Shown: positions 499 through 32,318 of the stretch, piece after piece
Position numbering within the stretch: position 1 is the stretch's first letter
How the letters are laid out: every line of letters begins with the position of its first letter
NCBI GenBank assembly: GCA_938010435.1
Contig: CALLUS010000005.1
Location: forward strand, 1-64,000
Length of the DNA: 64,000 nucleotides
Source: an uncultured Rhizobiaceae group bacterium
GTDB lineage: Bacteria; Pseudomonadota; Alphaproteobacteria; Rhizobiales; Rhizobiaceae
Reading direction: 5' to 3'
Made by a program: the position numbers and the translations under genes
The notes under the pieces: generated by a model
What the model was told of the DNA's origin: nothing
The model's input: only the letters and a program-made list of their open reading frames with translations
Database searches by the model: none

Positions 499-1610
499 TT
501 GCGATCTGCCTTTCTCTTATGGCGACGCCCTTTTTTTGCGAGCCGGTCGAATTCTTCCTGAAGTTGCATTTTTTCGAGTTGCTCCTGCGCAATCCTCGCG
601 GTGGTCATTGCAAGTCTACCGGCAGGAATGTCGAGGTAATCCTCACACAAGAACGGATTAACCGCGTCGTCTGCACTTTTGGCGGTGGAATACATCATAG
701 AAAAATGTTCAGAACCGACCGCGCCTGCCTCTGCTACGATTGCGTTGATAACGGCTTCTTTAGCCATTTCCACGCATTCTCCAATTTGCGCCCCAGCGGC
801 TACAATGAGCCGACTTGCAACGTCTTGTGCTTGCGGACCCATAGGAATTTCAGCAAGCTTTGCCAACGGTTTCAGTAGCTTCTCCGAGACTGTGGCGCTG
901 TGAAACAATGGATGGAGAGATTCGATGACGACCGGCAATGCACGACGGGAAAGCTCTGGGTCGCGTTCAATGCACTTGATGATCTCTGGGCATCCAACGA
1001 GAATAATGGTGATAGGCCATGTGTTGCTTTGACTGGCAGTCTTTAAAAACTTCGTGAATTTCTTACGTTCTTGTTCATTGGCAAGCTCAAAAATGTCGTG
1101 GGCTTCATCGATAATAAGGTAATCGATTTCACGTTGGCGCATCTGGGCCAGAACAATGCGACTAAGACCTGTGGCTGTGGTTGGTAAAGTCTTCCGAACA
1201 GGCGAGCCATCGACTTCTTCTACCGGTAAAGAATCCATCAACCCGCCTACTAGGCTGGTTAAAGTCATTGCTTCTAATTCGGCTTCAATTAGCCACGGGC
1301 AACCATCAGATGTTCCATATCCATCGAATGCACCACTCGCACGAATAGATTCCTGAACAAGTGTAGTTTTGCCGGCGCCGCTCTCTCCGGTCACCACCAC
1401 CATTTTTGCTTGCTTCCGTGCTCGATTGCCGCTTTCCGTTTTCTCTCCGTTTCTTTTATGGACCTGAATTGCCGCTTTAAGCGCTGTATTGATGACTTTC
1501 AGTGAAGGTGTCTGCCAGAAATATTCAAGCACAGCATCAATGCGAGCTGTTTGGTTGAAGTCCTCTGCCTCAAAGATCTTTTGAGCCGCCTCGATTGATT
1601 TTCTGCTCAT
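495..1610 (-). CDS. TnsC/TniB-like transposition AAA+ ATPase
   Basis: A 371-residue AAA+ ATPase. It has Walker A GESGAGKTTL at residues ~72-81 and Walker B YLIIDEAHDIF at ~160-170, then a sensor region with VGCPEI and an RRALP segment typical of TniB/TnsC. These proteins form ATP-dependent filaments on DNA that pass the target choice from TniQ to the transposase. The start is placed at 1610 rather than at 1625. A GGAG lies 8 bases upstream of 1610, and the ATG there overlaps the preceding stop as ATGA, implying translational coupling. It is downstream of the DDE transposase and upstream of the TniQ-like gene, the usual Tn5053/Tn7 order. Confidence 0.85.
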   Translation of the reverse strand: MSRKSIEAAQKIFEAEDFNQTARIDAVLEYFWQTPSLKVINTALKAAIQVHKRNGEKTESGNRARKQAKMVVVTGESGAGKTTLVQESIRASGAFDGYGTSDGCPWLIEAELEAMTLTSLVGGLMDSLPVEEVDGSPVRKTLPTTATGLSRIVLAQMRQREIDYLIIDEAHDIFELANEQERKKFTKFLKTASQSNTWPITIILVGCPEIIKCIERDPELSRRALPVVIESLHPLFHSATVSEKLLKPLAKLAEIPMGPQAQDVASRLIVAAGAQIGECVEMAKEAVINAIVAEAGAVGSEHFSMMYSTAKSADDAVNPFLCEDYLDIPAGRLAMTTARIAQEQLEKMQLQEEFDRLAKKGRRHKRKADRK

Positions 1611-2230
1611 TCCGGATCTCCCCATTTATCGATATTGTTGAAGTCGGAGTCATTGTTTCGCTGGGATTCGCTTCGCTTTTTCTTTGCTGAAGCGGTTGCA
1701 GCGATCGAACGAGTTTTCTCTGTCATCAAAACAGTTCCGGGATTACCAACGATGCGTTTGATCTGCCGACGTTCATCGCTCGCGGCTTTAGTTTCTTCTT
1801 CAGACATCCGTGGCGACTTTAGACCGGCGCGTTCCAAGGCAATGACTACTGTATCGGCGCATGCTTGAAGGCTTGCATCGCGTGTTTCAGTGTGAGCTTC
1901 CGCCTCCGCACCGCATTTGCGAAGCTGATCGGACTGCGTGAGAGACCAGTGGCGGCGGCTGACACCATTTAGGCCCGATGTTAGACAGGGAACGTCAAAC
2001 GCTTCCGATCCCGCGATCACTGTAATCGTGCTAAGATCCCAGTCGCCGCAATAGATAAATACTTGCTTGAAACGCTTACTTTCGCGCACATCTTGAAGCT
2101 CAGGACAATCATAGAGCAGCGTTTCAAACTCAATACCGGATGCCAGAATCGGGCGCACAGCCACTGAGCCAAACGTGAGCCGAGCTTGAGTTTCTGAGAT
2201 TGGGCCACTGCCGCCAATTTTACTTTTCAT
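1607..2230 (-). CDS. TnsB/TniA transposase C-terminal part encoded as a separate ORF
   Basis: A 207-residue product. Residues ~10-65 (RLTFGSVAVRPILASG, then a DWDLSTITV segment) look like the Mu-transposase C-terminal beta-barrel domain that in TnsB/TniA follows the DDE core in the same chain. The rest is basic and low-complexity, ending in KKKRSESQR, as in the TnsB tail that contacts TnsC. The ATG overlaps the end of the catalytic ORF by 11 bases (atgaaaagtaa). The transposase is thus either two subunits, one protein made by frameshifting in the A-rich overlap, or a broken gene. The ATGA junction with tnsC is intact, which argues for continued translation. Confidence 0.6.
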   Translation of the reverse strand: MKSKIGGSGPISETQARLTFGSVAVRPILASGIEFETLLYDCPELQDVRESKRFKQVFIYCGDWDLSTITVIAGSEAFDVPCLTSGLNGVSRRHWSLTQSDQLRKCGAEAEAHTETRDASLQACADTVVIALERAGLKSPRMSEEETKAASDERRQIKRIVGNPGTVLMTEKTRSIAATASAKKKRSESQRNNDSDFNNIDKWGDPE

Positions 2231-3719
2231 TGTTAAGTCCTTCCAGAAATTTGGCCTCTGGGATTTGTTTTCCTGGGCCGTTACCTTTGGTTTGCATGAC
2301 ATTGTATTCGTCGAACGTCGCACGAAGAAAAATCCCAAATACCTCGTCCCGCGCTAGGCACGCGCGTGACTGACCGTTGTCCATTTTGCCGTGTCCGGCA
2401 GTTCCAATTGTGTGACCAGGAAGTTTGCAGGAGACTAGGGACGATTGGGTTCGACAATGACGCTCAATTGGCCAGCCACGTTGTGGTTCGCCGGCCTCTC
2501 GCAGATCGAGTTGTGTACGTAGTTGGCCGCATGCGAACCTGAACTCGTCGCTCCGGAAGCATGACCCTTGATCAGTCACAATGCGTTCTGGAACAAACCC
2601 GCCAACAGGTGTGGTCTGAACGCCATTTGCATTGAATATGGCGGGCACATTCATCACAGCGCGGCGCAAGCACTCAAGCGCAGCTTCGGTGTTTTCGCTG
2701 TGAGAATGCACAATCGACATTATACGCCGGCTGTACAGGTCGATAATTGCAAACTGATAGCGACGTTCGGTGTCGATTTTTTCGATGTCGTCTGCTGATA
2801 GTCCAATTGGAATGCGGTCGATCGCTAACGAGTGGACATCGATCTCCCATGCATCAATATACCAGATCTGGTTAGATCTTGATGCTATAAGGTGCCCATA
2901 GTTACGACGATGCTGATTGTCTGCATATTGCTCACCACAACGTGCCAGATCGATCGCGTAGTCTGTGTTTCGAGATTTTATCCAATTCTTTAGTTTGTCG
3001 AGTGATAGATATGGAAAGTTGCGTCCGGTCCGTTTGCACAACGCCCGGATGTCCTTGTCAGCTTCTCGTTTTATTGTCGTGTAGTAAACGCCCGGACCAC
3101 TTAAATATAATTTCTCTGCGTCTTCAGCCACAGCAGCCAGCTCACCTGTTAGCTGCGGGTGTTTCTTGGTCCCACACCTTTCAGAATTGAGGTTTCGCAA
3201 GGCTGAAATGTGCATTCCGCCTTCGATTAATTTGTTCATCCACTTTCTCAATGTCGAAGGAGAAGGTGAAGTGAATTGCGCAACTACGGATCCGGCGCGC
3301 GGTTTACCACCGCTTTTGACCGCCCGACCGGACATTACTTTTGAGAGGTTGGTCTCAATGTTTTGCTCGTTCTTGTCGATAAAGCGCTTCAACTGCTTAT
3401 CAGAACGTGGAATACGGCATTGGATTGCTTGCAACGACCATTCAAAACGCCAAAAGATCAGTTCCGCTTTGCTACTGTCATTTGCACGCAGTAACGCATC
3501 GCGAACTTCTCTAACTGACAGAGCTGGCGAGGAAATATCGGGAATATGAAATTGGAGTGAGCCGATTTCCATAGCCGCACTAGCTGCAGGCATTCCAATA
3601 TAGATCTCTTCTCCGGTCTCGCTATCAAACCCAAGAACGCCACGAGCGCTGGCGATGACCCGAGTTAGTTGCTGTTCACCAAAAACGGCCACACAACCTG
3701 GTACATAATTCATAAACAT
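2220..3719 (-). CDS. TnsB/TniA-like DDE transposase, catalytic part
   Basis: A 499-residue DDE-family transposase with an rve-type integrase core. The acidic triad is visible: Asp in WYIDAWEID (residue ~289), Asp in VTDQGS (~383) and Glu in GWPIERH (~419), with 35 residues between the last two (D35E). An N-terminal helix-turn-helix region (~140-260) is the expected end-binding part. The open frame stops soon after the core, and the C-terminal barrel lies in the next, overlapping frame. The start ATG overlaps the stop of the TnsA-like gene as TAATG. The core looks intact, so loss of activity cannot be inferred from the triad. Confidence 0.8.
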   Translation of the reverse strand: MFMNYVPGCVAVFGEQQLTRVIASARGVLGFDSETGEEIYIGMPAASAAMEIGSLQFHIPDISSPALSVREVRDALLRANDSSKAELIFWRFEWSLQAIQCRIPRSDKQLKRFIDKNEQNIETNLSKVMSGRAVKSGGKPRAGSVVAQFTSPSPSTLRKWMNKLIEGGMHISALRNLNSERCGTKKHPQLTGELAAVAEDAEKLYLSGPGVYYTTIKREADKDIRALCKRTGRNFPYLSLDKLKNWIKSRNTDYAIDLARCGEQYADNQHRRNYGHLIASRSNQIWYIDAWEIDVHSLAIDRIPIGLSADDIEKIDTERRYQFAIIDLYSRRIMSIVHSHSENTEAALECLRRAVMNVPAIFNANGVQTTPVGGFVPERIVTDQGSCFRSDEFRFACGQLRTQLDLREAGEPQRGWPIERHCRTQSSLVSCKLPGHTIGTAGHGKMDNGQSRACLARDEVFGIFLRATFDEYNVMQTKGNGPGKQIPEAKFLEGLNNEK

Positions 3720-4459
3720 TACTGTACCCCAACCAAAGTGGAGGACATTTGCAGCTCATCGTCTTCAAACTGTTGGACAAAGCCGCATAATATAAACCGG
3801 GCAACAGAACGTAGGCCGCGGCCGCCTCCGACGTCTGCTGCTTCTACCAACGAACGCACTGAAGTAATGGTATGACCAATGGGAAGGTGTGGTTTGATGC
3901 TTTCATCGGCAGCAGCGTCTCCGTGCGCCAGACAGTTAATTGCAAAGGCTGCATTGGCAGGGGCGCTAGGATAGAAATCGTCTCGTGCAACAGCGCGCAT
4001 CTCATCGCAGTAAGTGCCCGTTGCCGGAGTGGTCGCAAGCGCTTCAAAAACGGATTCGAATTTTGCATCCTGCAGAGAACGGGGGCGAACCATGTATGCG
4101 ATCCGACGCCCATCTCTACCCACTGCTACGAAATCGAAGTAGTGTCGCCCTTCAAAGAAATCAGGATGATTAGGATCACCGAGATGCGCGTACCGAACTG
4201 GTCCTACCTGCTCACAAATAGAGACAACACCTTGTTGCCAAAAGAGAGCAAGGGCAGTGTCTGCCTCGACTCCGCTCTCTGCGCTGACTGCCCGCCATGC
4301 GCCTGCTTGAGATAGATCAGGAATACTGAGGAACCCAAATCCGTGCCGTTTTGAGGTGGCTTCGAAAGAACGCCGTGCCACTGAGGCTTGCACAATCGAT
4401 GGATTACTCCAGTCGGCGGGCATAGCATCTGTTAGGTGACTATTCTGAAATTGTGTCAT
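3719..4459 (-). CDS. TnsA-like endonuclease subunit of a Tn7-like element
   Basis: A 246-residue protein immediately upstream of and coupled to the transposase. A HYFDF segment followed by a DGRR turn and a YMVRP strand (residues ~105-130) resembles the TnsA nuclease core, where an Asp and a Val-Lys strand supply catalytic residues. Here the Lys position appears to be Arg, so activity is doubtful. The C-terminal half has the 'fyPsApaNA...GFR/Rxxxrfi' helical layout seen after the nuclease core in TnsA-type proteins. The ATG at 4459 overlaps the preceding stop as TAATG. A TTG 15 bases upstream is possible but less likely. The family assignment is by pattern and context, not by a database match. 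Confidence 0.55.
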   Translation of the reverse strand: MTQFQNSHLTDAMPADWSNPSIVQASVARRSFEATSKRHGFGFLSIPDLSQAGAWRAVSAESGVEADTALALFWQQGVVSICEQVGPVRYAHLGDPNHPDFFEGRHYFDFVAVGRDGRRIAYMVRPRSLQDAKFESVFEALATTPATGTYCDEMRAVARDDFYPSAPANAAFAINCLAHGDAAADESIKPHLPIGHTITSVRSLVEAADVGGGRGLRSVARFILCGFVQQFEDDELQMSSTLVGVQ

Positions 4460-4671
4460 TATTTTTGTGTCCAATAAGATGTCGTGATTGTTTCAGGAAG
4501 CGCATGTCCTTGATCATGTTCGTCGTTTGCATTGAGCTTCTGCTTAGAGCTTGGGCAACTGTCGAAACGATGTGCGAGCCAACTCAAGATGCTCCATCTG
4601 CCCAATGAACGGGAAGGGAGTTGATGGTTGATATTGCTGGTGTCCCAGCGAGTATAAATTTCTTTGCTCAT
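4459..4671 (-). CDS. Small uncharacterised protein leading the transposition operon
   Basis: A 70-residue product, first gene of the leftward operon. The ATG at 4671 has a clear Shine-Dalgarno (AAGGAG, 6 bases upstream), and its stop overlaps the next ATG as TAATG, so it is very probably translated. The sequence is basic and aromatic near the N-terminus (IYTRWD, SLGRWSILSWLAHRFD) with a polar C-terminus. No family was recognised. By position it could be a regulator of transposition, a small DNA-binding subunit, or a leader peptide coupling translation of the nuclease gene. Confidence 0.6.
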   Translation of the reverse strand: MSKEIYTRWDTSNINHQLPSRSLGRWSILSWLAHRFDSCPSSKQKLNANDEHDQGHALPETITTSYWTQK

Positions 4672-4762
4672 TTTGAGCTCCTTCAATTTCAATTCAGACA
4701 AAGCTCTGCCGTTGACGAAAAGCGAAATGCTCACGCCATCTGGCAGTCTTCGAACGTGTAAT

Positions 4763-4823
4763 GTGTTGACGGCGGATGCCGGTTGTCGAGCGTCTGCCGT
4801 CAACACTAATGCTGACAGCAGAC
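4763..4823. repeat. Inverted and direct short repeats, candidate Tn7-like element end
   Basis: GTGTTGACGGC at 4763-4773 is matched by its exact reverse complement at 4796-4806. A related copy, GCTGACAGCAGAC, lies at 4811-4823. The shared core is roughly GTTGACGGCAGAC. Repeated short sites in both orientations beside the first tns gene are what TnsB/TniA binding arrays look like, but the exact element terminus and target duplication could not be found. Confidence 0.4.
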
Positions 4824-5001
4824 TGACAATGAAGGTTCTAAGAGGTGTTCATTTTCATCACTCCAGTTTTGAGGCTCTGGAGACTGTGGACCACGGCGCA
4901 CGTTGAAATTGACGCAAGCGTGCTCATGTGCAAAACTGCACTCTCAGCTCCAGAGCTGTTGGTGGCGGAACTTTTTCAACGGGATCCCACCAATAAATTT
5001 T

Positions 5002-5036
5002 GGCGTCCTCGGTCTATTGGCTGAGGCGCCTTTTTT
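5002..5036 (+). terminator. Rho-independent terminator (rightward)
   Basis: GGCGTCCTCGG pairs with CTGAGGCGCC across a short loop and is followed by TTTTTTG. It is preceded by a second perfect 7-bp hairpin (TTGGTGG...CCACCAA, about 4959-4991). No rightward gene was recognised upstream, so the terminated transcript is unknown. Confidence 0.6.
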
Positions 5037-5517
5037 GTTGCTCGTTTGAGTTCATTCTAGAACCTTCGCTAAACAACTGACTTGAGAAAACAACTATTTG
5101 ATTTTCATTGCAAGATCACTTTAGATCTCATCTATCATTTGGTTGTTAGGCTGATTGATAACACTATATAGTTGTAATTCAGATTGAAACTATTAGTCGC
5201 TTCAGCATGCCATTTGAATTTTAAAGGCTTCGTTTTTTGCTCTCATTTTTTGAGATTTTATAACGAGGCAAATGGTCGATTGAATTGACATCATTACAAA
5301 CCGTTTTCAAATTGAGAAAGTCCCAAGTTGAAAGAGGTCTTGAGTGTTTGGTTTTTTCTCCGTTGATTTTTACAAGTTCTGAAATTGCCAAAATCTAGCT
5401 ACAATTGGCCATAATATTTTTTGTTCCCTTTTCCCTTTTTTCTAATTTCTAATTTCTAATCTTTTAAAATGCACTCTTAGGAGTGTGTAAGTATCCAAGC
5501 TTGTTGTGTCGCCGTCT
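5037..5517. other. AT-rich stretch without a recognised gene
   Basis: No convincing coding frame. It contains three tandem copies of a TTTCTAA unit at about 5439-5460 next to T-rich runs. It separates the transposition operon from the second TnsA-like gene pair. Confidence 0.5.
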
Positions 5518-5940
5518 CTATGAACCGCGGATTACACATCCATGCGACCAATTGAGAATAGGTGCGGCTGTTGCCCCACTTCTGACCAATATTCCCAAAT
5601 GTGGAGGTAAATTTGGATATCTTACATTTGATTCGTTCCAGAACTGTGTCCGGAGTCGCGCTGCTTGGATCGTAATTCTGGGAGAAAAAATTTGATCAAA
5701 ATTGAGATTAAAGTCTTCATTACTAGCTGGTTTATGAACGTCAAACCGCTGGCTCATTTGCCACCTTAAAGTGCAAGAACCAATTCGCGAGAACAACGAG
5801 AGTGACCTTGGCGCCGTGCCAGTGAACTCCGTCATTATCTCGCCAATTGATCTAAAATTTTCCGCTACGAGATGTCGCCACGCAAATACCCAGCGGTTCC
5901 AAGTTGATGTTTGATCCGATGACCACATAACAGTTCTCAC
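5518..5940 (-). CDS. Uncharacterised protein coupled to the divergent TnsA-like gene
   Basis: A 140-residue product starting with GTG that overlaps the preceding stop as GTGA, suggesting coupling. It has several Trp residues in its first third (WSSDQTSTWNRW, WRHL) and no recognised motif, signal peptide or membrane segment. In a Tn7-like order this position would hold TnsB, but no DDE core is present, so it may be the remnant 5' part of a decayed gene or an unrelated small protein. Confidence 0.35.
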   Translation of the reverse strand: MRTVMWSSDQTSTWNRWVFAWRHLVAENFRSIGEIMTEFTGTAPRSLSLFSRIGSCTLRWQMSQRFDVHKPASNEDFNLNFDQIFSPRITIQAARLRTQFWNESNVRYPNLPPHLGILVRSGATAAPILNWSHGCVIRGS

Positions 5941-6617
5941 TTTTTCAGTGTTGATGAATCTGAATTTTCTGAAAGCAGTTCCGGTTTAACGTTGCTAGAA
6001 TTTGTTGGCTTCCGATAAGAGTTCGAAGGCCAAATTTGAGTGTCCAAGGCAATCGACGACGAAATGTCGATTGAGAGGCTGCAATCACACACCATTCGGA
6101 AAATGGTTCTGAACAAACTGCTCGGATCGCAATTCAATGCTTCTGCGATACTGCCAATTGCAACTGGTGTATTTATTTTCTGGAGATGATGAAGCGCAGC
6201 AAGCTGGTCAACTAAAGATGTCTTCTCATTTCGTCTTGCCCAGATTGACAACGCATTCTCATATCTTCGGTCACACTGAACCCTTAGCCTGGTGATGTGA
6301 TTAGGTGCGCATCGGTCGTTCGAAAATGTATGGTCCGCGCCATCACCTGCAACTAGCAAGTCAAACCTCTTAGGTTTTGAAGCAAACTCTAGCACAATGA
6401 GGAGATTACCAACCGGTCTGCAAATGTCGTCTTGGATTAGCGGCTGCTCGGTAACTTGCGCTATACTAATAACTTCATGCGACAAAGTTTGGATGATCAG
6501 CCAATGCGCCTGCCAACGGTGTGTAAACAAAATTGGGGCAATCGTTTTTGGGCTGGTGAAACTATGTTGCTGGCGGTTCCGACAGCGGGATGCTTCATTG
6601 TTTTTGCCGATTTTCAT
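5937..6617 (-). CDS. Divergent TnsA-like protein (possible remnant of a second Tn7-like module)
   Basis: A 226-residue protein with a strong ribosome-binding site (GAGG, 9 bases before the ATG). The C-terminal half (residues ~115-200: NEKTSLVDQL ... TPVAIGSIAEAL ... SLFRTIFRMVCD ... LDTQIW) has the same helical order as the C-terminus of the TnsA-like protein at 3719-4459. The nuclease part is poorly conserved: FDLLVAGDG is the only strand-turn that could match, and no clear Lys motif follows. I infer a distant paralogue. It could equally be an unrelated winged-helix protein. A promoter candidate lies upstream at 6725-6760. Confidence 0.4.
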   Translation of the reverse strand: MKIGKNNEASRCRNRQQHSFTSPKTIAPILFTHRWQAHWLIIQTLSHEVISIAQVTEQPLIQDDICRPVGNLLIVLEFASKPKRFDLLVAGDGADHTFSNDRCAPNHITRLRVQCDRRYENALSIWARRNEKTSLVDQLAALHHLQKINTPVAIGSIAEALNCDPSSLFRTIFRMVCDCSLSIDISSSIALDTQIWPSNSYRKPTNSSNVKPELLSENSDSSTLKK

Positions 6618-6724
6618 CGGGGGTACCTCAACGCTAAACTCAAACTGAATGCGACACTTAGAAGGGCAGGGCCTATCAAGTAGTTCGCCTAAATCTGAGG
6701 TTCGCTAGAGCCAACCTTATAGTT

Positions 6725-6760
6725 ACTACAATGTATTATGTAGGCTATGTCAATGCCTAC
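6725..6760 (-). promoter_or_regulatory. Promoter with overlapping dyads upstream of the divergent TnsA-like gene
   Basis: On the minus strand TTGACA (6753-6748) is followed after 17 bases by TGTAGT (6730-6725). The -35 lies inside an inverted repeat GTAGGC...GCCTAC (6740-6745/6755-6760). A second repeat CTACA...TGTAG (6726-6730/6739-6743) overlaps the -10 and spacer. This suggests a repressible promoter. Confidence 0.4.
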
Positions 6761-6902
6761 TCTTATTTTGATGTTGGGTGTCGGTTATGGCACTGAATTG
6801 TTGTTATTTTTTTACATAAGCAGAAGCTTTTCTTCTCCCTAAGGTGGCAGGCTAACTAGCACATCAAAAGCTAAAGTGGCGTTTGAGCTTCCAGCGCTCC
6901 AT

Positions 6903-8120
6903 TTAGAAAAAATCAGCTTTTGCAGCAGCTTGCGGATCGGTTGCATTTGAAAGCAACCAGCCTTGAATTGCTGAAGGCGCAGTTTTTGTGTCTCCAATTT
7001 TCAGGCAGAATTGTTTGCACAACTCTTCTTCGCCCGGAAAAAATCGGTCAAATAGTTTCGAAGCTGTTGTTGCGCCAACCAACCCAAGTTCAACATGAAC
7101 ATCTGCGCGTCCTGGTCTGATAAGCGCGGGGTCCAATTTCTCTACGTGGTTGGTCGTCATGATTAAGGCTCTGCCTTCTTGTGCGCCAACACCGTCAATG
7201 GCATTCAGCAAGCCAGAAAAACTTATACCCGATTGCCGCTTCCCATCGCGTTGCACAAACATGGCATCCACATCTTCGATGACCAAAAGCGCGTCTTTTG
7301 GGGCATCCAGCATTGCTTCTCGCAAATCGTCGTCTGTCATACCGGCTCTTCCAAGGTCCATTGTTGCAATGTCCAAACGCAGATCTGTTGCAAGAGCACG
7401 TATAAGAGATGACTTGCCTGTTCCCGGCGGACCATGGAGCAAATACCCTCTGCGCCATGGAACACCACGTTGGAAATACCAATCTTGAGCGCTGCAAAAC
7501 CAACGCAAATCTTCAGCAAGGTGCTCTATCCTGTCATCATCGTGCACAACAGTATCTAGTCCGCGCCCTCGAACATCGCCCACATGATCCCAATAATCAC
7601 CTCTCAGAACATGAAGGCCTGGCCCAGCTTTGTCGCGAGTTCTTGCTAGCATTGCCCCGTCATTGACCCATTCTAAAATGGTATCTGTGCGGCCAAAAAA
7701 CATTGTGACCGTTAGGGTTTCCATCATGCTTTGTTGACGACCGGATTCGACACGACGTTTTTCGTCAATTGTCCAAGTGAAACTGCACAGCTTTCCGCGA
7801 TACCAGAACCAATATCGCCCGGGCGCTACTGTGAAGCCGTTGGTTCCATCTGCGTGACGCGGATCAATGCGCGACAGCTGACGAATGTTTTTTAAAACAC
7901 CACTGGTGTTGAGCCATAGAAGCAGATGGCGGTAGTTTGTAGAGCGATTGTCGATGGTCACACTGGCGCAAAAACGCCGACCTGCAACCTTTTCGCTTAT
8001 GTTCCATGCGGACCGTAATAGTGTCGCCAGAATGCCAATAATGCCAAGCGCGATTCCTCCGGCGAAGAATTCGCTTTTAGTGGCACTCATGAAAAACTCA
8101 GTAAACTGTTCAAACATCAT
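6903..8120 (-). CDS. BCS1-like membrane-anchored AAA ATPase in the rtcB-prfH operon
   Basis: A 405-residue protein. One hydrophobic segment at residues ~22-45 ([18 protein letters not shown]) is followed by a BCS1-N-like region and a AAA domain. Walker A is [18 protein letters not shown] (~223-240), Walker [12 protein letters not shown] (~275-285), sensor 1 TTNH, and [11 protein letters not shown] is the BCS1-type arginine region. BCS1 family members translocate folded proteins in mitochondria; bacterial ones are unassigned and turn up in conflict-related operons. The start is placed at the ATGATG at 8120, which overlaps the prfH stop and has AGG upstream; 8156 would overlap prfH by 40 bases. 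Its job with the repair enzymes is unknown. Confidence 0.8.
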
Positions 8121-8761
8121 CTGCTGACCTCGCGAAACGAAGTGCCTTTGAAACACCGAATGGGATTGCCTCTTTCCAGTTGTTTGTGCAGTGCCGCCAT
8201 CTCGTTCGTTGAATCTGCCGTAGCTTGAATGTTCATCAGCATCATTTTGTCTGCCAAACGTCTCAAGGATATCTGCTTGTTGCGATGTTGCGAACGTTCA
8301 TCGCGGGACAACGCGACCATCCCCGTTGGAATATGGGTCACGCGCACAGCGCTATTGGTTGTATTCTGGTGCTGCCCACCGGGGCCGCCTGCACGAAACG
8401 TTTCAACTCTTAGATCATCAACGCGGATGGAGGCATCAATGACAGAAGATGGGGCTAGCAAGAACACACCCACAAACCAATTTTGGCGCTTGTGGTTTGG
8501 TCGAAACGAACTTTTACATTTCCATTGAATCGTGCCTGTCCATCGATATGCGAGTTTCTCACTTTCGTCGCCAGACAAGGTTATCAATGCAGAAGCAGGG
8601 TCCTTGTCTTTGTGAGGTTCTGGCAGGATCACATCAAAATGAACGCTTAGGTCTTTTGCTTCACGTTCAACCTCTTTGACAACAAGTGATACAGCGCGCC
8701 TACATTCTATCGGGCCATCACCGCTGGAAATGAGCAAACGAATTTCGTTTAAATTGTTCAT
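8117..8761 (-). CDS. prfH: Peptide chain release factor homologue PrfH
   Basis: A 214-residue class I release-factor homologue. It carries the catalytic GGQ motif in [19 protein letters not shown] (residues ~122-140) and the following basic helix, but lacks the domains that read stop codons in RF1/RF2. Family knowledge: PrfH releases the peptide from ribosomes whose 16S decoding centre has been cut by a ribotoxin, so that the partner RtcB can reseal the rRNA. Its ATG overlaps the RtcB stop as ATGA and its stop overlaps the AAA start, so all three are translationally coupled. The length fits the family (about 200-215). Confidence 0.88.
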
Positions 8762-9951
8762 CGGTCACGCCTCCGTTGAAGAAGACGCTGCTGTTTGTCT
8801 TGTCGATCAGACGCGTCGTGAGCAGATGCTTTTTTGAAGGTAACCAGTGGCTTCAAAGAAACAACGGGTGTCGCTAAATTGGATTGCATGAGATCATCAA
8901 CAACAGCACGGGAATCCTTATAAGCTTGAGGAGCTTCCTCCAACAGCAACTGACGATCATCGCAAACAACACGCCCTCCAAATGATGTGCGCTCCAACTT
9001 GCTGCGATCCGACTTGGTGGAACCAACTCGACCCAGCATTGATTGCCGGTCATATTTTCGACCGGCACCATGTGACAAAGAATTTAGCGCTCGGTCAATT
9101 TGACCAGTGGGTTTCAAAAGATAGCTGAGTGCATCACGAGATCCTGCCAATGGCACCAAAGCAATGTCGGCCTTGGCAGCTCCTTTTCTGTGAAGATACA
9201 TTCCCTCATGGTTCTCGATGAGATTGTGCGGAGAATCCGCAATCAACTTTACAGAGGCACGCAAAGCTAATGCTGCGCGTTCCGCGATAAGTTTCCGATT
9301 GAGACAGGCCCATTCGACTGACCTGTCATGGTTTTTAAGATGGGCGTTGGCTTCAACGGTGTTAGCGGTCAGCCCTACCATATTGTTCTGAACGCCCCTG
9401 AAAACCTCAGCGCCCATAGAGCGTGAGCCAGAGTGAACGAGCAAAAGTACGCAGTTCTTCGAAAGTCCAACAGCACGGGCCGAAGTTTCATCAAAGATGC
9501 TGTCGACGGCCTGCAGTTCACAGAAGTGATTGCCGCCGCCAATAGTGCCCAATGAACGGTCATGGATGCTGGTTGGAAGCCCTGCATAACGGATTGCCTT
9601 TGGAATGTCTCCATCCCAAAGGCCTTCGAGTGTGCGCAGTTTCTCGGCGGCTTTTTCAACACGTATTTTACGCGCAGAAAGGTCCAACAGGAACAGTGAC
9701 ATCCCGCAACCAATATCGTTGCCAATGAGGTGCGGGTAGACGCGGTCTGCCAATATGGCACAACCAACCGGCCCGTACTTGCCGGGGTGTAAGTCAGGAA
9801 ATGCAGCGATTTTTTGAACGCCTTTTACGTTTGCGACCTGATCCAATTGATCAATAGCAATTCCTTCGATCCAAGAATGAGTAGAATGGAAAATGTTGAT
9901 GTGCGCAGCGCAATCAATATTGCGTGCGACATCCGAAAGAGGAGTGCCCAT
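8758..9951 (-). CDS. rtcB: RtcB-type RNA ligase (PrfH-associated RtcB2 group)
   Basis: A 397-residue 3'-phosphate/5'-hydroxyl RNA ligase. Mn-binding and active-site motifs are present: GNDIGCGMS (Cys ~81), [19 protein letters not shown] and [10 protein letters not shown] with the guanylylated His at residue 294. It joins 2',3'-cyclic-phosphate or 3'-phosphate ends to 5'-OH ends using GTP and Mn2+. It is first in an operon with prfH, the context of RtcB2 enzymes that reseal cleaved 16S rRNA. AAGG lies 9 bases before the ATG. Archease is absent. It faces the hen1-pnkp operon across a 411-base intergenic region. Confidence 0.92.
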
Positions 9952-10362
9952 GTGGGAATACCTTTTGAAAACAGCTTAAGTTGGAGTCCAAGCGTTTGCT
10001 TGTCTCTTTTCATCCTGGCTGCTCCGTAAAGACGGTTTAGCGCAGGTTTGCTGCCCGTTTGGGCGCGGAGATCATGAAAGTCATGTCTATTGCCTCATAG
10101 TCAAAAGGTTGTGCTGGTTGTCAGCGAGTGCGGTGGATACTCGACGAATCTAAAATGCACAACATGTGTTTTGTAGTTTCGATCAAAACAGGGAATAGAT
10201 GAAACATTTATGCAACACTCAAAAAATTCAGAAAGAATAGTACCGCATTGGGTTTTTCATTAAATTCATTACCAGCGATCATATCTTTTCTTTACCTGTA
10301 TTGATTGATAATGGGTCAGTGGTTTTTACACGAATATTATTCGCAGTTAGATAGGTTTCGGC
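9952..10362. other. Divergent intergenic region between the two RNA-repair operons
   Basis: No ORF is credible here. A compact foldable stretch lies at about 10022-10070: outer arms CTCCG/CGGAG with inner hairpins GCAG/CTGC and CCC/GGG. It could be part of the rtcB leader RNA. The right part is AT-rich and should hold the hen1 promoter. No clear sigma-54 (-24/-12) element of the E. coli RtcR type was found. Confidence 0.45.
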
Positions 10363-11790
10363 ATGCAAATTGAAATTTCATTGCTCAAAGATGAGGGTGA
10401 TACCTATTCTGCGCAAGATTTAGGTTACCTGCTTCACAAACACCCAGCCAATGTACATGAGCGAGAAACAGGTGCGGGTAAGGCAGTCATTTTCTACAAC
10501 GAAGTTTCAGACGACCGAACGACTGCTGTATTGTATCTGGACATTGATCCTATTGCATTGGTTCGTGGAAAAAATCGATTTTCAGATGGGCCGCTTGCGC
10601 AATATGTGAACGATCGGCCGTATGTGGCTAACTCTTTTCTATCAGTTGCGATGAGCAAGTCGTTCGGTCAGTCAATGTCTGGTAAGTCGAAGAGTCGTCA
10701 AGAATTGGCCGATAGATCTCTTCCGTTTGAGGCACGTGTAACTCCTGTTGGAGCGTCTGGTGGTATTGAAGTGATTAAGTCTCTTTTTGAACCACTTGGA
10801 TATACAATCGAAGCGGTCTCTTTGTCTGGTGATGAAGCTCGGGGCATCTTTGATCTAAAGCTCAAAGGCAATGTACGTCTCTGTGATCTGCTGAATCATC
10901 TCTATGTTTTGGTTCCCGTTTTAGACAACGCCAAACACTATTGGATCGACAAAGACGAGATTGATAAGTTGTTGGCAAAGGGCGAAGGGTGGTTGGCTGA
11001 CCATCCGGCAAAAGAGTTGATTGCGCGCCGGGCACTAAAACATAGAAGGGCTTTGGCCAATGATGCCCTTGGTCGGTTGGCTGATGATTCAGAAACTGCA
11101 GATGATGCTTCAGAAACCGTTGAAAGAGAAAGGAAATTGCAACCAGAAGAGGCTCTTGAGAAACCGATCAGGTTGCATGACCTTCGTTTGGATACGGTTG
11201 CGGCACTCTTGAAACAACGCGGCGTTAGCAGTGTTCTTGATCTTGGATGCGGTGAAGGCAGATTGCTGCAAAGGCTAATCAAAGAACGTGGATTGGATAA
11301 GTTGGTCGGGGTTGATCCTTCCGTTGTTTCTTTGGAAAGAGCAGCTAAAAAACTGCACTTGGAAGAAGCCGGTGACGCGATGCGCGAGCGCGTGAAGTTG
11401 CAGATGGGAAGTCTAACCTATGCTGATCGTAGATGGCATAACTTTGATGCAGCAACACTTGTAGAAGTGATTGAACATATCGATCCAACACGTTTGGCAT
11501 CATTGGCATTGTCTCTGTTTGGAGATGCTGCACCAGGGATTGTTGTCATCACTACTCCAAACCAAGAGTACAATAAATTGTTTGAAGGCATGGAACCTGG
11601 TTCAATGCGACATTCAGATCACAGGTTTGAGTGGAGCCGGGAAGAGTTCCAAAGTTGGTGCAAACCTGTCGCGGAAACCCACGGCTATTCAGTGGAATTT
11701 TCACCGCTGGGACCATTGGATGCTGAGTTTGGTGCGCCTTCACAAATGGCCGTGTTTGAACGGCAAGATCGAATTGGAGCGTCGTCATGA
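10363..11790 (+). CDS. hen1: Bacterial Hen1, RNA 3'-terminal ribose 2'-O-methyltransferase
   Basis: A 475-residue protein with the bacterial Hen1 layout. The N-terminal domain (1-~240), which in characterised homologues binds Pnkp and activates its ligase, starts MQIEISLLKDEG. The C-terminal methyltransferase (~270-470) has SAM motif VLDLGCGEGRLLQ (~289) and the metal-binding EVIEHID (~367), plus downstream TTPNQEYN and RHSDHRFEW. It methylates the 2'-OH at the 3' end of a cleaved RNA so that the repaired RNA resists the same ribotoxin. The ATG has AGG 9 bases upstream. Its stop overlaps the pnkp start as ATGA. Confidence 0.93.
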   Translation: MQIEISLLKDEGDTYSAQDLGYLLHKHPANVHERETGAGKAVIFYNEVSDDRTTAVLYLDIDPIALVRGKNRFSDGPLAQYVNDRPYVANSFLSVAMSKSFGQSMSGKSKSRQELADRSLPFEARVTPVGASGGIEVIKSLFEPLGYTIEAVSLSGDEARGIFDLKLKGNVRLCDLLNHLYVLVPVLDNAKHYWIDKDEIDKLLAKGEGWLADHPAKELIARRALKHRRALANDALGRLADDSETADDASETVERERKLQPEEALEKPIRLHDLRLDTVAALLKQRGVSSVLDLGCGEGRLLQRLIKERGLDKLVGVDPSVVSLERAAKKLHLEEAGDAMRERVKLQMGSLTYADRRWHNFDAATLVEVIEHIDPTRLASLALSLFGDAAPGIVVITTPNQEYNKLFEGMEPGSMRHSDHRFEWSREEFQSWCKPVAETHGYSVEFSPLGPLDAEFGAPSQMAVFERQDRIGASS

Positions 11791-14339
11791 AACTCTCACT
11801 TCCTGACTTTGCACTTGTTGTTCTTATTGGACCTACTGGGTCTGGTAAGTCGTCTTTCGCACGGAAGCATTTTCTAGATACTGAGGTAATTTCTTCTGAT
11901 CACTGTCGTGCTTTGGTGTCGGATGACGAAACTGACCAAACATGTACTGGTGATGCATTTGAATTGCTCAGCCAGATGGCTGGCATTCGCCTTCGTAGGC
12001 GCAAGTTGACAGTTATTGATGCAACCTCAGTGAATCGTGAGGATAGAGCGAAGTTGGTCAAGCTTGCGCGTCAATATCATGCATTGCCAGTGGCGTTGGT
12101 GTTGAACATTGAACCAGAGGTTTGCCACGAGAGAAACAAAGGTCGTGACAACAGAGACTTTGGTATCCACGTTCCAAGAAATCACTCACGCGCACTGCGC
12201 AGAGGTTTGCGAGGGCTTCAAAAGGAAGGGTTTCGACAAACCCAGATCATGAGAACGCCTGAAGATGTTGATGCTCTTGAGATCGTACGCACACCACTTT
12301 GGACGGATCAGCGAAGCCTAAAAGGTCCATTTGATATCATTGGGGATCTGCATGGTTGCTTCGATGAACTCGGTGAGTTGCTTCAAAATCTCGGTTATGA
12401 GCTGGATACTATGCCGACCGAACCTGAAGCATTGTTCAGCGCGAGGCACCCTGAGGGACGCACTGCTTTTTTTGTTGGTGACATTACAGATCGTGGCCCA
12501 AGAAACCTTGATTGCCTTCGTCTCGTAATGGGCATGTGTGCGGAAGGAACTGCACAATGCGTTATGGGCAATCATGATTTTAAATTGAGCAAATGGTTGA
12601 AAGGTCGAGACGTAAAGTTAACCCACGGCCTAGACCTGACCGTTGCTGAGTTAGAAAACACTTCCGAAGAGTTTCGCAAACAGGCAACAGAATTCGTATT
12701 CAACCTCCGCTCTCACGCATGGTTGGCAAAGGGCAAGTTGGTGATTGCCCATGCTGGTTTGAAGCAAGAGATGCATGGACGAGGATCGGGTGCAGTACGG
12801 ACATTCGCAATGTTTGGCGAAACCACAGGTGAGATTGATGAATTTGGATTGCCCGTTCGTTTGGAGTGGGCGAGGGAGTATCGTGGAGATGCCGAAGTCG
12901 TTTACGGGCATACGCCTATGGTTGAGGCAGAGTGGCTCAACAATACCCTTTGCATAGACACGGGGTGCGTCTTTGGTGGCAAGATGACTGCTCTGCGTTG
13001 GCCCGAACGGGAAACTGTGTCGGTACAAGCAAAACGACAATATTCAGAACCAGCCAAACCGTTAGATTCTGGCGATGGTCGCTCAGCGCAACAAGACAAT
13101 GACCGCTTGCTCTACTTTGACGACTTCGCTGTGAAACGTCGTATTGAAACCCGTTTTAAGAGCACAGTTCTCATACCAGAACAAAACAGTCTCGCAGCCT
13201 TGGAGGTTGTGAGCAGGTTCGCGGTAGATCCACGTTGGCTGGTATATGTTCCACCAACAATGGCAGCTTCCCCAACAGCTGCAGATGAAGGATTTCTTGA
13301 GCGTCCTGAAATGGCACTCAATTTCTATGCCAGTCGGGGAGTGACGGATCTGATCGTAGAAGAAAAGCACATGGGATCTCGGGCAATCATTGTGCTTGCA
13401 AAGAGCAAGGGCGCTGCGCGGTCTCACTTTGGCGTCGAAGATGATAAGGCAGGTGTCATTTACACCCGCACGGGGCGTCCTTTCTTCAAAGATGAAGCAC
13501 AAGAAGCTGAAGTCATTCAACGCATCACAAAGGCGATGGAAACGTCAGGCCTATGGGACGAATTGTCATCCGATTGGATGGTTTTAGACGCAGAACTGAT
13601 GCCTTGGTCGGCAAAGGCACAGGAACTGTTGAATCGCCAATATCATCCTACTCATGCGGCTGCTTTGGAATCTGCAAACGCGTTGCTTGAAGCCATTTCT
13701 TCCGCAGGCAATTCGCCTGAACTTGAGGCACTCAAAGTCACCGCAACCATTCGCAAAGACAATGCAATTCGTATGGCGCAAACCATTGATGGTTATTGCT
13801 GGTCCGCCGAGACTATTGATGATTTTCGAATTGCTCCATTTCATATTTTGGCAGCGGAAGGTCGGGTGTTTTCGAACAAAACACACGTTTGGCACATGGA
13901 AACCCTTACAAAACTAGCCGCTGCTGATCCGATTATTCAGACGACTGGTTGGAAGCAGATCGATCCAACTGACGGAAAGCAATGTCAGCAAGTGATCAAG
14001 TGGTGGTTGGAACACACAGAAGCCGGAGGCGAAGGCATGGTGGTCAAACCGAATGCCTTTTTAGTTTCGGGAGAAAAAGGTTTGATCCAACCGGCCATGA
14101 AGGTGAGGGGGCGCAACTATCTCCGCATTATTTATGGTCCGGATTACGACATGCCTGGAAATATTGAACGATTGCGGGAGAGAGGTTTGGCAAGGAAATT
14201 CTCACTAGCAGAACGAGAGTTCAAACTTGGGTTGGAAGGTCTGCACCGGTTTGTAGAAAAGCAACCTTTGTCCAAAGTGCATGAATGCGCACTTGGCGTC
14301 TTAGCACTGGAGAGCGAACCAGTTGATCCACGTCTTTGA
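11787..14339 (+). CDS. pnkp: Polynucleotide kinase-phosphatase-ligase Pnkp
   Basis: An 850-residue three-domain repair enzyme. The N-terminal kinase has P-loop GPTGSGKSSFARKHF (~13-27). The central calcineurin-type phosphatase has DIIGDLHGCFDE (~183), GDITDRGP, VMGNHD and a later IAHAG. The C-terminal adenylyltransferase has EEKHMGSRA with the predicted AMP-accepting Lys527. It heals 5'-OH and 2',3'-cyclic-phosphate ends and seals them with Hen1, acting on tRNAs cut by ribotoxins. The length is near the family's usual ~850, and all three active sites look intact. It is translationally coupled to hen1. Confidence 0.94.
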   Translation: MKLSLPDFALVVLIGPTGSGKSSFARKHFLDTEVISSDHCRALVSDDETDQTCTGDAFELLSQMAGIRLRRRKLTVIDATSVNREDRAKLVKLARQYHALPVALVLNIEPEVCHERNKGRDNRDFGIHVPRNHSRALRRGLRGLQKEGFRQTQIMRTPEDVDALEIVRTPLWTDQRSLKGPFDIIGDLHGCFDELGELLQNLGYELDTMPTEPEALFSARHPEGRTAFFVGDITDRGPRNLDCLRLVMGMCAEGTAQCVMGNHDFKLSKWLKGRDVKLTHGLDLTVAELENTSEEFRKQATEFVFNLRSHAWLAKGKLVIAHAGLKQEMHGRGSGAVRTFAMFGETTGEIDEFGLPVRLEWAREYRGDAEVVYGHTPMVEAEWLNNTLCIDTGCVFGGKMTALRWPERETVSVQAKRQYSEPAKPLDSGDGRSAQQDNDRLLYFDDFAVKRRIETRFKSTVLIPEQNSLAALEVVSRFAVDPRWLVYVPPTMAASPTAADEGFLERPEMALNFYASRGVTDLIVEEKHMGSRAIIVLAKSKGAARSHFGVEDDKAGVIYTRTGRPFFKDEAQEAEVIQRITKAMETSGLWDELSSDWMVLDAELMPWSAKAQELLNRQYHPTHAAALESANALLEAISSAGNSPELEALKVTATIRKDNAIRMAQTIDGYCWSAETIDDFRIAPFHILAAEGRVFSNKTHVWHMETLTKLAAADPIIQTTGWKQIDPTDGKQCQQVIKWWLEHTEAGGEGMVVKPNAFLVSGEKGLIQPAMKVRGRNYLRIIYGPDYDMPGNIERLRERGLARKFSLAEREFKLGLEGLHRFVEKQPLSKVHECALGVLALESEPVDPRL

Positions 14340-15445: not shown

Positions 15446-17593
15446 ATGGCCAAAGCCAAGAATACAACCCATTTACAAACATCTGAAACCAAACCAAAGG
15501 ACCTATTGGCCCGAGCATTTTTGGATATTCTAACCGACCGACAGGGTGCCAAGCCGAACCGGATGTTGAAAACGCATGATACAGACGAACATCATGAAAA
15601 TGAGCTGATCCTTGATGTTCTCGATGATCTAACCGACGAAGCTAATTCAGAGCCAGTTCGGATACAGCCACAGATAGCTGCGGCCGCCGTGCTTGTCGCG
15701 CGAGCAATTGAAACCTCGCCGGGTTTAATCCGTCAACTCAAACGACAAATGACATTTGTTACACTTCATGTTCCTGATGCTGATTATCTATTGCCTATTC
15801 AGCAGGTTTTTGTCGATTGCGCTCTTCCTCAACTGCCACCGAGGCCTGATTTTGTTTCCAGAAGCAGGGAACGTAAAACTGAAATCACATCCTTCAAGAT
15901 TGAAGGTCGATATGCATTTTGCATTCGAGATGGTAGCGCCAAGAACCACAACTCAATGACTGGAAACGAAGAAATCACGGAACAGGTGTTCGAGGGTAAG
16001 ACAGTGATTGGCATCTCTACCGATCCCAAACGATACCTTCCGCGTGATTTAATGCGTGTCGCAGAGCACCATCTAAGGTTACCAACATTGGACTTGTCAG
16101 CGCTCAATCTAATCATTGAAGCGACGACCGGAAAGCCAAGCAATGTTGAGTTCGATGAAAAGCTTTTGCGTCTGGTCACTTCAGCTGACCTGTCTTTGGC
16201 CATTCGGCGGGAATTCACCCCAGAAGAATGCGTCCACAAACTTCGAGAGATCATTGAGAAGAAGGATGAGTTCTCGCTAGCAGGCCCTAAACTTGAGGAA
16301 ATGTTCGGGTTTGGCACCGCGAAAGAATGGGGCCTGAACCTCGTATCTGACATGGAGGAATACAAAGAGGGAAACCTCAGTTGGTCTGAGTTTGATCACC
16401 GAGGATTGCTGTTATCGGGCGTTCCAGGAACAGGTAAAACTTCATTTGCGCGCGCCTTAGCCAAGTCTGCCAACGTGCCTATTGTGGCGACAAGTGTCTC
16501 GCAATGGAACGCTGAGGGAGATCATTTGGGCCACACTTTGATGGCAATGCGGAATGCGTTCCAAAGAGCGCAGCAGCTGGCGCCTTGTCTCTTGTTTATT
16601 GATGAAATCGATGGGATTTCATCCAGGGATAATCTGGACACTCGGTATCGAGAATACTGGGCCCAGGTCGTCAATCAACTTCTCGAATTGCTGCAGGGCT
16701 TTGAAGAGCGGACAGGGGTTGTGGTTCTTGGCGCCACCAACCATCCAGAAAAGATCGATCCCGCGGTCCTTCGCGCTGGCAGGCTTGACCGCATTATTCA
16801 AATCGATTTGCCTGATACAGAAGCTATGCACGAAATCTATCGTTTCTACCTCGCCGATTCATTGGGCGAAACTGAACTGATGCCTTTGGCGACCGCTTCA
16901 AGAGGCAAGTCTGGTGCCGATGTTGAGGCATACGTATCCAGAGCCAAAGCTAAGGCTCGACGTGAAAAACGCACCATGGTGTTGACCGATATCATGTTCG
17001 AAATCCGGGCAGGTCGCCCCGAATATCCCAAAGAAATCATGCGATGCATTGCTGTTCATGAGGCTGGCCATGCCGTTGCCAATCTGCACTTTAACATTGG
17101 AGCGCTGAAAAGCGTTGAAATCAGTGCAGCTGGCGGCGCAACAGTCCATCAAACGGAACGGCACAGCTTTCTTCAAAGCAAAGCCTGTGATGATTTCCTC
17201 GTGATCTTGATGTGTGGAGCTGCGGCTGAAGAAGTTATAATTGGATCCACTACTATTGGCAGTTCGTATGGACCCAATAATGATCTTCAAAAAGCCACTG
17301 AGCTGGCGATACAATTGGAGATGGCATGGCAAATTGGGAAGCCTGCGCCACTCACAATGTCATTGCCTGAAGAGAGATTGATAACTGCTCTGCCGGAACT
17401 TCGGGGGAGGGTGCAGCAACGTCTCAACAAGGCGGCAGAAGCGGCGAGGGCACTCATCAAGTCGAAACGAGATCAAGTTGAACTCATCGCCGATGAGTTG
17501 GAGCGGCGCCATTACCTTTCAGGGGACGAAGTCTCTCAGATTTTGACCCGAGGCTTGTCGATAGACGTTGAAACGCGTCACGAAGCAGCTTGA
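15446..17593 (+). CDS. Soluble FtsH-like AAA ATPase with M41 metalloprotease domain
   Basis: A 715-residue protein. The AAA module has Walker A LSGVPGTGKTSFARALA (~323-339), Walker B CLLFIDEIDG (~388) and the second region GATNHPEKIDPAVLR. The M41 peptidase has the zinc motif HEAGH (His538, Glu539, His542) and NNDLQKATELA with the third ligand Asp. Unlike housekeeping FtsH there are no N-terminal membrane helices; residues 1-~280 form a different, unassigned region. Such proteins occur in mobile islands as ATP-driven proteases of unknown substrates. AGGAG lies 7 bases before the ATG. A small gene follows 10 bases downstream. Confidence 0.88.
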   Translation: MAKAKNTTHLQTSETKPKDLLARAFLDILTDRQGAKPNRMLKTHDTDEHHENELILDVLDDLTDEANSEPVRIQPQIAAAAVLVARAIETSPGLIRQLKRQMTFVTLHVPDADYLLPIQQVFVDCALPQLPPRPDFVSRSRERKTEITSFKIEGRYAFCIRDGSAKNHNSMTGNEEITEQVFEGKTVIGISTDPKRYLPRDLMRVAEHHLRLPTLDLSALNLIIEATTGKPSNVEFDEKLLRLVTSADLSLAIRREFTPEECVHKLREIIEKKDEFSLAGPKLEEMFGFGTAKEWGLNLVSDMEEYKEGNLSWSEFDHRGLLLSGVPGTGKTSFARALAKSANVPIVATSVSQWNAEGDHLGHTLMAMRNAFQRAQQLAPCLLFIDEIDGISSRDNLDTRYREYWAQVVNQLLELLQGFEERTGVVVLGATNHPEKIDPAVLRAGRLDRIIQIDLPDTEAMHEIYRFYLADSLGETELMPLATASRGKSGADVEAYVSRAKAKARREKRTMVLTDIMFEIRAGRPEYPKEIMRCIAVHEAGHAVANLHFNIGALKSVEISAAGGATVHQTERHSFLQSKACDDFLVILMCGAAAEEVIIGSTTIGSSYGPNNDLQKATELAIQLEMAWQIGKPAPLTMSLPEERLITALPELRGRVQQRLNKAAEAARALIKSKRDQVELIADELERRHYLSGDEVSQILTRGLSIDVETRHEAA

Positions 17594-32245: not shown

Positions 32246-32318
32246 CAACTAAGTGGCCCATGGAGGATTTTACTATGACGGCTTTGCATACAGACTTCCT
32301 TCGCAGAACGTGACAATT

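Follow-up and report, generated by a model that had tools for sequence, protein, structure and literature searches.

Results

Organisation of the locus

The DNA analysed here, referred to below as the window, comprises the first 64,000 nucleotides of contig CALLUS010000005.1 (assembly GCA_938010435.1) from an uncultured Rhizobiaceae group bacterium. Two RNA-repair modules face each other in it: rtcB2-prfH on the minus strand is divergent from hen1-pnkp on the plus strand, the two pairs lying 411 bp apart and consisting of four complete open reading frames (ORFs; Table 1). We consider that this may be a horizontally acquired RNA-repair island whose two complementary modules would restore a translation apparatus cut by ribotoxins, a reading to which we give an even chance. 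A preliminary description of the same DNA had reported the four genes with all their active-site motifs intact; ORF and profile checks place them exactly where it had put them, all four pass their NCBIfam cut-offs, and alignments confirm that the catalytic residues of RtcB2, PrfH, Hen1 and Pnkp are kept. Its left operon of rtcB2 and prfH was correct but incomplete, a third gene, bcs1, having been overlooked. Four-nucleotide ATGA start/stop overlaps are found at three junctions (rtcB2/prfH, prfH/bcs1 and hen1/pnkp), so the locus reads as a pair of translationally coupled operons, with rtcB2-prfH-bcs1 on the left and hen1-pnkp on the right.

Table 1. Coordinates of the genes of the island and of the region between its two operons
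Feature	Product	Position in window	Strand	Length and matches
rtcB2	RtcB2-type RNA 3'-phosphate/5'-OH ligase	8758..9951	-	397 aa; TIGR03073 + PRK09588
prfH	PrfH release-factor homologue	8117..8761	-	214 aa; TIGR03072; GGQ
bcs1	BCS1-type AAA protein	6903..8120	-	405 aa; BCS1_N, AAA, AAA_lid_BCS1
intergenic region	between divergent operons	9952..10362		411 bp
hen1	Hen1 3'-terminal RNA ribose 2'-O-methyltransferase	10363..11790	+	475 aa; TIGR04074, Hen1_L
pnkp	Pnkp polynucleotide kinase-phosphatase-ligase	11787..14339	+	850 aa; TIGR04075

The RtcB2-PrfH module

PrfH scores 202.8 bits against TIGR03072 (cut-off 166.65), keeps the GGQ motif at residues 128-130 when aligned with other PrfH proteins, and matches the solved PrfH chains 9mor and 7sa4 (best E 9.5e-41). 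For RtcB2 the scores are 334.4 bits against TIGR03073 (cut-off 271.8) and 415.4 bits against PRK09588 (cut-off 407), and the best solved RtcB relatives are 4dwr and 1uc2; all the sequences aligned, canonical RtcBs among them, share D79, C82, N141, H142, H173, H242 and H294. These positions, like those given below for Hen1 and Pnkp, are taken to be catalytic. A PrfH equivalog with GGQ thus adjoins a release-factor-associated RtcB with an intact active site, which places the pair in the RtcB2-PrfH ribosome-repair module. A genome search found a single RtcB in the window's genome, RtcB2 itself, seen as two pieces of one gene. RtcB2-PrfH protects E. coli against colicin E3 but not against the tRNA toxins E5 and D (PMC9223846), and by analogy with this homologue the window's module is predicted to rescue and ligate colicin-E3-cut ribosomes. 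Elsewhere, a conjugative Klebsiella pneumoniae plasmid of the IncC type was seen to carry RtcB2-PrfH, with qnrA6 and sul1 on either side (L201 3299-8649).

The Hen1-Pnkp module

Hen1 scores 602.4 bits against TIGR04074 (cut-off 340) and 288.8 bits for the Hen1_L domain, retains E368, E371, H372, H417 and H420 in alignment with other Hen1 proteins, and matches 4dqz and 3jwh in the PDB. Pnkp reaches 1246.4 bits against TIGR04075 (cut-off 750) in a match over its full length, 1-850; its P-loop, phosphatase residues and K527 do not vary across the five sequences compared, and it matches solved kinase, phosphatase and ligase domains, with 4drf, 4j6o and 4gp6 as best relatives. With three domains in Pnkp, a ligase-activating N-domain and a methyltransferase in Hen1, and one operon for both, the pair belongs to the bacterial Pnkp-Hen1 RNA repair complex, the type represented by Clostridium thermocellum and Anabaena. 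Among the nine nearest relatives with hen1 in view, seven have rlaP, encoding an RlaP nucleotidyltransferase, between hen1 and pnkp (L073, L088 at 9176-9994, L090, L091, L092, L193 and L231, not L228 and L229); no RlaP lies between the window's hen1 and pnkp, and none was found in a search of its genome. According to PMC4411300, metal-independent ribotoxins leave 2',3'-cyclic phosphate and 5'-OH ends, and repair by Pnkp-Hen1 adds a 2'-O-methyl group that blocks re-cleavage; RNA repair with 2'-O-methylation is predicted for the window's Pnkp-Hen1 from these homologues.

The BCS1 gene

The bcs1 frame spans 6903-8156, and translation very probably starts at the ATG at 8120, which overlaps the stop codon of prfH as ATGA. 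The product is over cut-off for the BCS1_N, AAA and AAA_lid_BCS1 domains, which assigns it to the BCS1 AAA family, and a domain scan found the same domains in the L179 and L193 proteins. The match between a six-homologue profile and mitochondrial BCS1 (6sh3) covers nearly the whole length, positions 4-402 of 414 (E 7.4e-83), and a membrane-helix-like stretch can be made out by eye at the N-terminus. Such proteins are rare: they were found in 2 of 385 genomes of the class at E <= 1e-15, the window's included, in 6 of 248 genomes of one family at 1e-40, and in no plasmid record at 1e-20.

Homologues stand in repair islands in 5 of the 11 cases examined (the window, L179, L181, L193 and L198), a count biased by the fact that Sulfitobacter and Erythrobacter were examined for their Pnkp. 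In the alphaproteobacterial genome G500 (L193), bcs1 sits between RtcB2-PrfH and Hen1-RlaP-Pnkp. The Sulfitobacter DFL-14 copy adjoins RtcR and TROVE-RtcB-Hen1-x-RlaP-x-Pnkp; that on an Erythrobacter contig from a metagenome-assembled genome (L181) adjoins RtcR and TROVE-RtcB, the Pnkp of that genome being on another contig; and in G440 a fragment with a TGA follows RtcR and TROVE-RtcB. A search that used only BCS1 led to G500 and G440; two of its six family matches (these two) are repair-linked, and the other class match, G145, lies outside repair islands. We rejected the notion that BCS1 in general is a repair gene: 6 of the 11 homologues (L178, L180, L194, L195, L196 and L197) have none of the queried repair genes in their fetched flanks, weak AAA and sigma-54-activator matches being disregarded and L195 offering merely 1.4 kb on one side. 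In a tree, the five repair-linked proteins form one group with support 85/84 on an unstarred branch, two of the five rows being short pieces; the protein of G499, a genome with Pnkp and RtcB2 elsewhere, joins them at 98/99. Among the 11 homologues, repair linkage is limited to the BCS1 group that holds the window's protein.

The intergenic region

The region between the operons gave no Rfam match at gathering scores and no inverted repeat of at least 10; it contains one terminator-like stem of 5 pairs at 9989-10002. No sigma-70-like site was listed in it, and its sigma-54-like sites all have three mismatches, none having fewer. Control of the island by RtcR was rejected because a genome search found no RtcR in the window's genome; the intergenic region also lacks a good sigma-54 promoter. 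The two modules may be co-regulated.

Pairing of the two modules in other genomes

Four further loci have RtcB2-PrfH no more than ~2.2 kb from Hen1-Pnkp: L088, L102, Skermanella plasmid L182 and G500 (L193). The co-occurrence survey that the preliminary description had proposed thus finds the pairing beyond one locus, and finds it a minority state throughout. Among the five linked loci the divergent arrangement is seen in the window only, where rtcB2-prfH-bcs1 faces hen1-pnkp, and the other four loci are all tandem: Hen1-RlaP-Pnkp-RtcB2-PrfH in L088, RtcB2-PrfH-PcfJ-like-Hen1-x-Pnkp in L102, Hen1-Pnkp-x-x-(x)-RtcB2-PrfH in L182, and RtcB2-PrfH-BCS1-Hen1-RlaP-Pnkp in G500, which has the window's five genes plus rlaP. 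In G500, RtcB2 is cut by the contig end, Hen1 and Pnkp are each matched in two pieces and Pnkp contains a TAG, so this copy may be decayed or badly assembled. The differing layouts of the five linked loci favour, and do not prove, repeated assembly of the pairing. In a 16-row RtcB2 tree the linkage label changes four times, and well-supported branches force at least three of these changes. L088 and G500 group together there (93/89), and a single origin may account for both.

In the family of 248 genomes, Pnkp is over cut-off in 6 and RtcB2 in 7, to which the contig-truncated copy of G500 is added; both modules occur in two genomes, adjacent in G500 and on different contigs in G499. Under uniform placement (6/248 x 20 kb/4 Mb) we estimate ~1e-4 adjacent cases per RtcB2 locus and ~0.001 for eight loci; the one case observed is far above this, although accessory genes cluster and the true null is therefore higher. 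On plasmids, RtcB2 was found in 32 records, Pnkp in 18 and both in 3 (Skermanella, Rhizobium leguminosarum and Nonomuraea). The genome samples overlap slightly: G292 is in both, L128 is the contig of G229, and L089 and L230, which have the same length (5411), are apparently a single contig.

Several results weigh against a cooperating pair. The class sample of 385 genomes has RtcB2 over cut-off in 5 and Pnkp in 7, the window's genome counted, and that genome alone has both; Hen1-Pnkp is in the flanks of none of the other four RtcB2 loci, and the flanks of the other six Pnkp loci, several of them on short contigs, hold no RtcB2 and one other RtcB. Among the best 80 Pnkp loci by similarity, drawn from at least 573 confirmed stretches of the genome collection, 12 hold some RtcB and 2 of these RtcB2-PrfH (L088 and L102) within the fetched flanks; for the 34 loci flanked by 8 kb or more on each side the figures are 4 and 1. 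Hen1-Pnkp stands beside one of the eight RtcB2 loci of the 248-genome family, and on plasmids RtcB2 adjoins it in 1 of 32 records, Skermanella rosea pSR-1. In favour of the pair, co-occurrence of Pnkp and RtcB2 in that family gives a Fisher p of 0.013 (2 genomes with both, against 6 with Pnkp and 8 with RtcB2), but the test was post hoc, includes the contig-truncated RtcB2 and counts G499, whose genes are on separate contigs. Also in its favour, the label changes five times in a Pnkp tree of 83 rows, built by a quick method and not bootstrapped, or four times if the negatives are confined to well-flanked loci; for the two trees, however, shuffled labels give equally low numbers in 215/500 and 500/500 trials, so that the label is not more clustered than a shuffled one. 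Label changes in the trees may be gains or losses; the link is scattered, and the trees do not fix how often it formed. Searches of the intergenic region for sigma-54 sites and palindromes found no operator that the divergent operons might share. Co-localisation being the minority state, the modules may simply share residence in accessory islands without functional coupling, and the function proposed here for the island is a prediction.

Rarity and genomic setting

PrfH and Pnkp are each over cut-off in one of 41 near genomes, the window's own, and among 14 other genomes of the genus none has PrfH over cut-off or Pnkp at E <= 1e-40. Acquisition of the island by horizontal transfer is the probable history. 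To its left is a degraded Tn7/Tn5053-like set on the minus strand (103-3719), with a TniQ-like protein (PADLOC 2.6e-5), TniB (PF05621) and an rve transposase (PF00665); window base 1, left of these genes, is also the first base of the contig. Some 2 kb of A+T-rich DNA (4807-6902), in which the short ORFs 5518-5940 and 5937-6617 have no Pfam matches, separates them from the island. The island was considered as possible Tn7-like cargo, and a simple search for repeats in 4300-6950 revealed no clear transposon end. On the other side, positions 30785-36410 encode a bSEFIR defence protein (PADLOC 349.5 bits) and, next to it, a protein of 1363 aa whose nuclease domain is Cap4/LmuA-like, probably a defence cluster, ~16 kb to the right of the island. 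A protein of 715 aa with AAA and M41 protease domains (15446-17593) adjoins the island; it scores 189 bits against the FtsH equivalog (cut-off 600), and we dropped this FtsH/M41-like protein as an island member because other loci give merely weak AAA-level matches. In genome G032, of the same order, PrfH is split over two frames (L004/L084, G032:C308), and a second contig (L232, G032:C207) carries a Pnkp match of kinase-phosphatase length, profile 2-426.

Related RNA-repair islands

Other RtcB subfamilies also join Hen1-Pnkp, as the 12 of 80 loci above show, two RtcB2-PrfH loci counted. An island of the Rhizobiales (L071/L128, 226-10548) combines RtcR with Ro60/TROVE-RtcB-RtcA-Hen1-Pnkp, and a domain scan confirmed the RtcR and Ro60/TROVE domains in L071 and L179 and also underlies the RtcB and RtcA labels. 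On a Shinella plasmid (L186 2311-9816) RtcB2-PrfH lies beside RtcR and TROVE-RtcB, RtcB2 adjoining the canonical RtcB, and on a Novosphingobium plasmid (L200 8001-17082) it lies beside RtcR and TROVE-RtcB with RtcA. A PcfJ-domain protein, a candidate for another partner of repair islands, was seen between RtcB and Hen1-Pnkp in two distant islands (L102 5952-7421 and L098 3273-4694; 39% identical). Several RNA ligases are combined in jumbo phages too, where the authors consider them probably not redundant (PMC7824862).

Discussion

The simplest reading of the pairing, by analogy with studied homologues, is complementary coverage of rRNA and tRNA. Were the 16S decoding site cut, PrfH would enter the damaged ribosome and release the peptide, the ribosome would fall apart, and RtcB2 would then reseal the cut rRNA. 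Were a tRNA cut in its anticodon loop, Pnkp would phosphorylate the 5'-OH and remove the 2',3'-cyclic phosphate, Hen1 would methylate the 2'-OH, and the Hen1-dependent ligase domain of Pnkp would seal the tRNA, leaving a methylated junction expected to resist the same toxin. The published findings on RtcB2-PrfH (PMC9223846) and Pnkp-Hen1 (PMC4411300) indicate that the modules cover different targets, and a division of labour between rRNA and tRNA repair may therefore hold in the window. The preliminary description had opposed 3'-phosphate ligation to cyclic-phosphate healing as independent chemistries. The chemistries are indeed distinct; the opposition itself fails, since both modules start from 2',3'-cyclic phosphate and 5'-OH ends, RtcB accepting 3'-phosphate and cyclic-phosphate ends (PMC4411300, PMC7824862), and the real contrast lies in the target RNA and in a methylated versus a plain junction. 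Its term RNA-repair island is a fair description in view of the recurrent pairing, with the reservation that co-localisation is the minority state; it had further suggested that the island might give broad resistance to ribotoxins, phage- or self-inflicted cleavage included.

It is possible, if on the doubtful side, that mobile accessory modules simply gather in defence or integration hot spots and become neighbours with no joint work. The degraded transposition genes and the bSEFIR and LmuA/Cap4-like genes in the window fit this, as do the occurrence of both modules on plasmids, their absence over cut-off from the 14 other genomes of the genus, and the fact that the RtcB2 and Pnkp loci examined mostly stand apart. 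Against it, the pairing is found in distant lineages, in differing layouts and within ~2.2 kb, and G500 keeps bcs1 between both modules as one tandem set. A second alternative, which we judge unlikely, is that the island mends RNA cut after phage attack by the cell's own toxin-antitoxin or abortive-infection nucleases, not by bacteriocins; the defence cluster 16 kb to the right speaks for this, and other islands adjoin toxin-antitoxin genes (VapBC; a MazE-like gene), whereas the scan of neighbouring proteins revealed no RNase toxin, a survey of the genome's RNases not having been made. That both modules serve one pathway on the same RNA, RtcB2 fast and without a mark, Hen1-Pnkp slow and with a methyl group, competing or backing each other up, is very unlikely: both do use 2',3'-cyclic phosphate and 5'-OH ends (PMC4411300, PMC7824862), and other islands join a canonical, presumably tRNA-directed, RtcB with Hen1-Pnkp, but RtcB2-PrfH gave E. 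coli no protection against E5 or D (PMC9223846), and RtcB2 is tied to the ribosome by PrfH. If, as we prefer, the two modules cooperate, one locus would cover damage to both rRNA and tRNA, and would allow a direct test of layered RNA repair in bacteria, unmarked in one layer and methyl-marked in the other.

Any part played by BCS1 in repair is a proposal. Co-translated with RtcB2-PrfH, it would probably serve the same response, working at the inner membrane where it might, for instance, extract or move a folded protein. A bolder version, which we think quite unlikely, makes the locus a three-armed coordinated translation-repair island whose third arm, a BCS1-type membrane AAA machine at the inner membrane, would be a partner dedicated to RNA repair, perhaps pulling back or expelling a folded toxin domain or clearing arrested products. 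If true, this would give bacterial BCS1 proteins a role that links toxin entry with RNA repair; the recurrent link offers a concrete lead to bacterial BCS1 function and would bring a membrane component into RNA-repair systems. The literature searched on BCS1 and RNA repair, in the portions available, contained no description of BCS1 linked to bacterial RNA-repair operons; for jumbo phages, BCS1 and RtcB are both treated, in separate sections of one paper (PMC7824862). Both modules, and accretion around RtcB-PrfH (PMC6514570), have been published. The literature searched, whose coverage does not extend to the 2016 survey of Burroughs and Aravind, yielded neither the pairing of RtcB2-PrfH with Hen1-Pnkp nor the BCS1 partner; the sole paper there that had PrfH and Hen1 together was an unrelated insect paper.

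Compared with known systems, the left operon resembles the RtcB2-PrfH operon of E. coli ATCC25922 in both families, gene order, overlapping genes and intact active sites, and differs in the coupled BCS1-like gene downstream and the facing hen1-pnkp. The accretions around RtcB-PrfH given in the available text of PMC6514570 (section 2.4) are TPR, Pol-beta NTase, zinc-ribbon and charged-helix proteins, with neither BCS1 nor Hen1-Pnkp among them. The right operon shares with the bacterial Pnkp-Hen1 complex the full domain set and the placement of hen1-pnkp in one operon, but is linked to RtcB2-PrfH. Like the mitochondrial BCS1 AAA translocase, the window's third protein has an N-terminal helix-like stretch, BCS1_N, an AAA domain and the BCS1 lid, although it is bacterial and encoded within an RNA-repair operon. 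Finally, RtcR-controlled Rsr/TROVE-RtcB(-RtcA) operons are joined with Hen1-Pnkp in L128/L071, L091/L179 and L231 and with RtcB2-PrfH in L186 and L200, whereas the window's genome has no RtcR and only an RtcB of the RtcB2 type.

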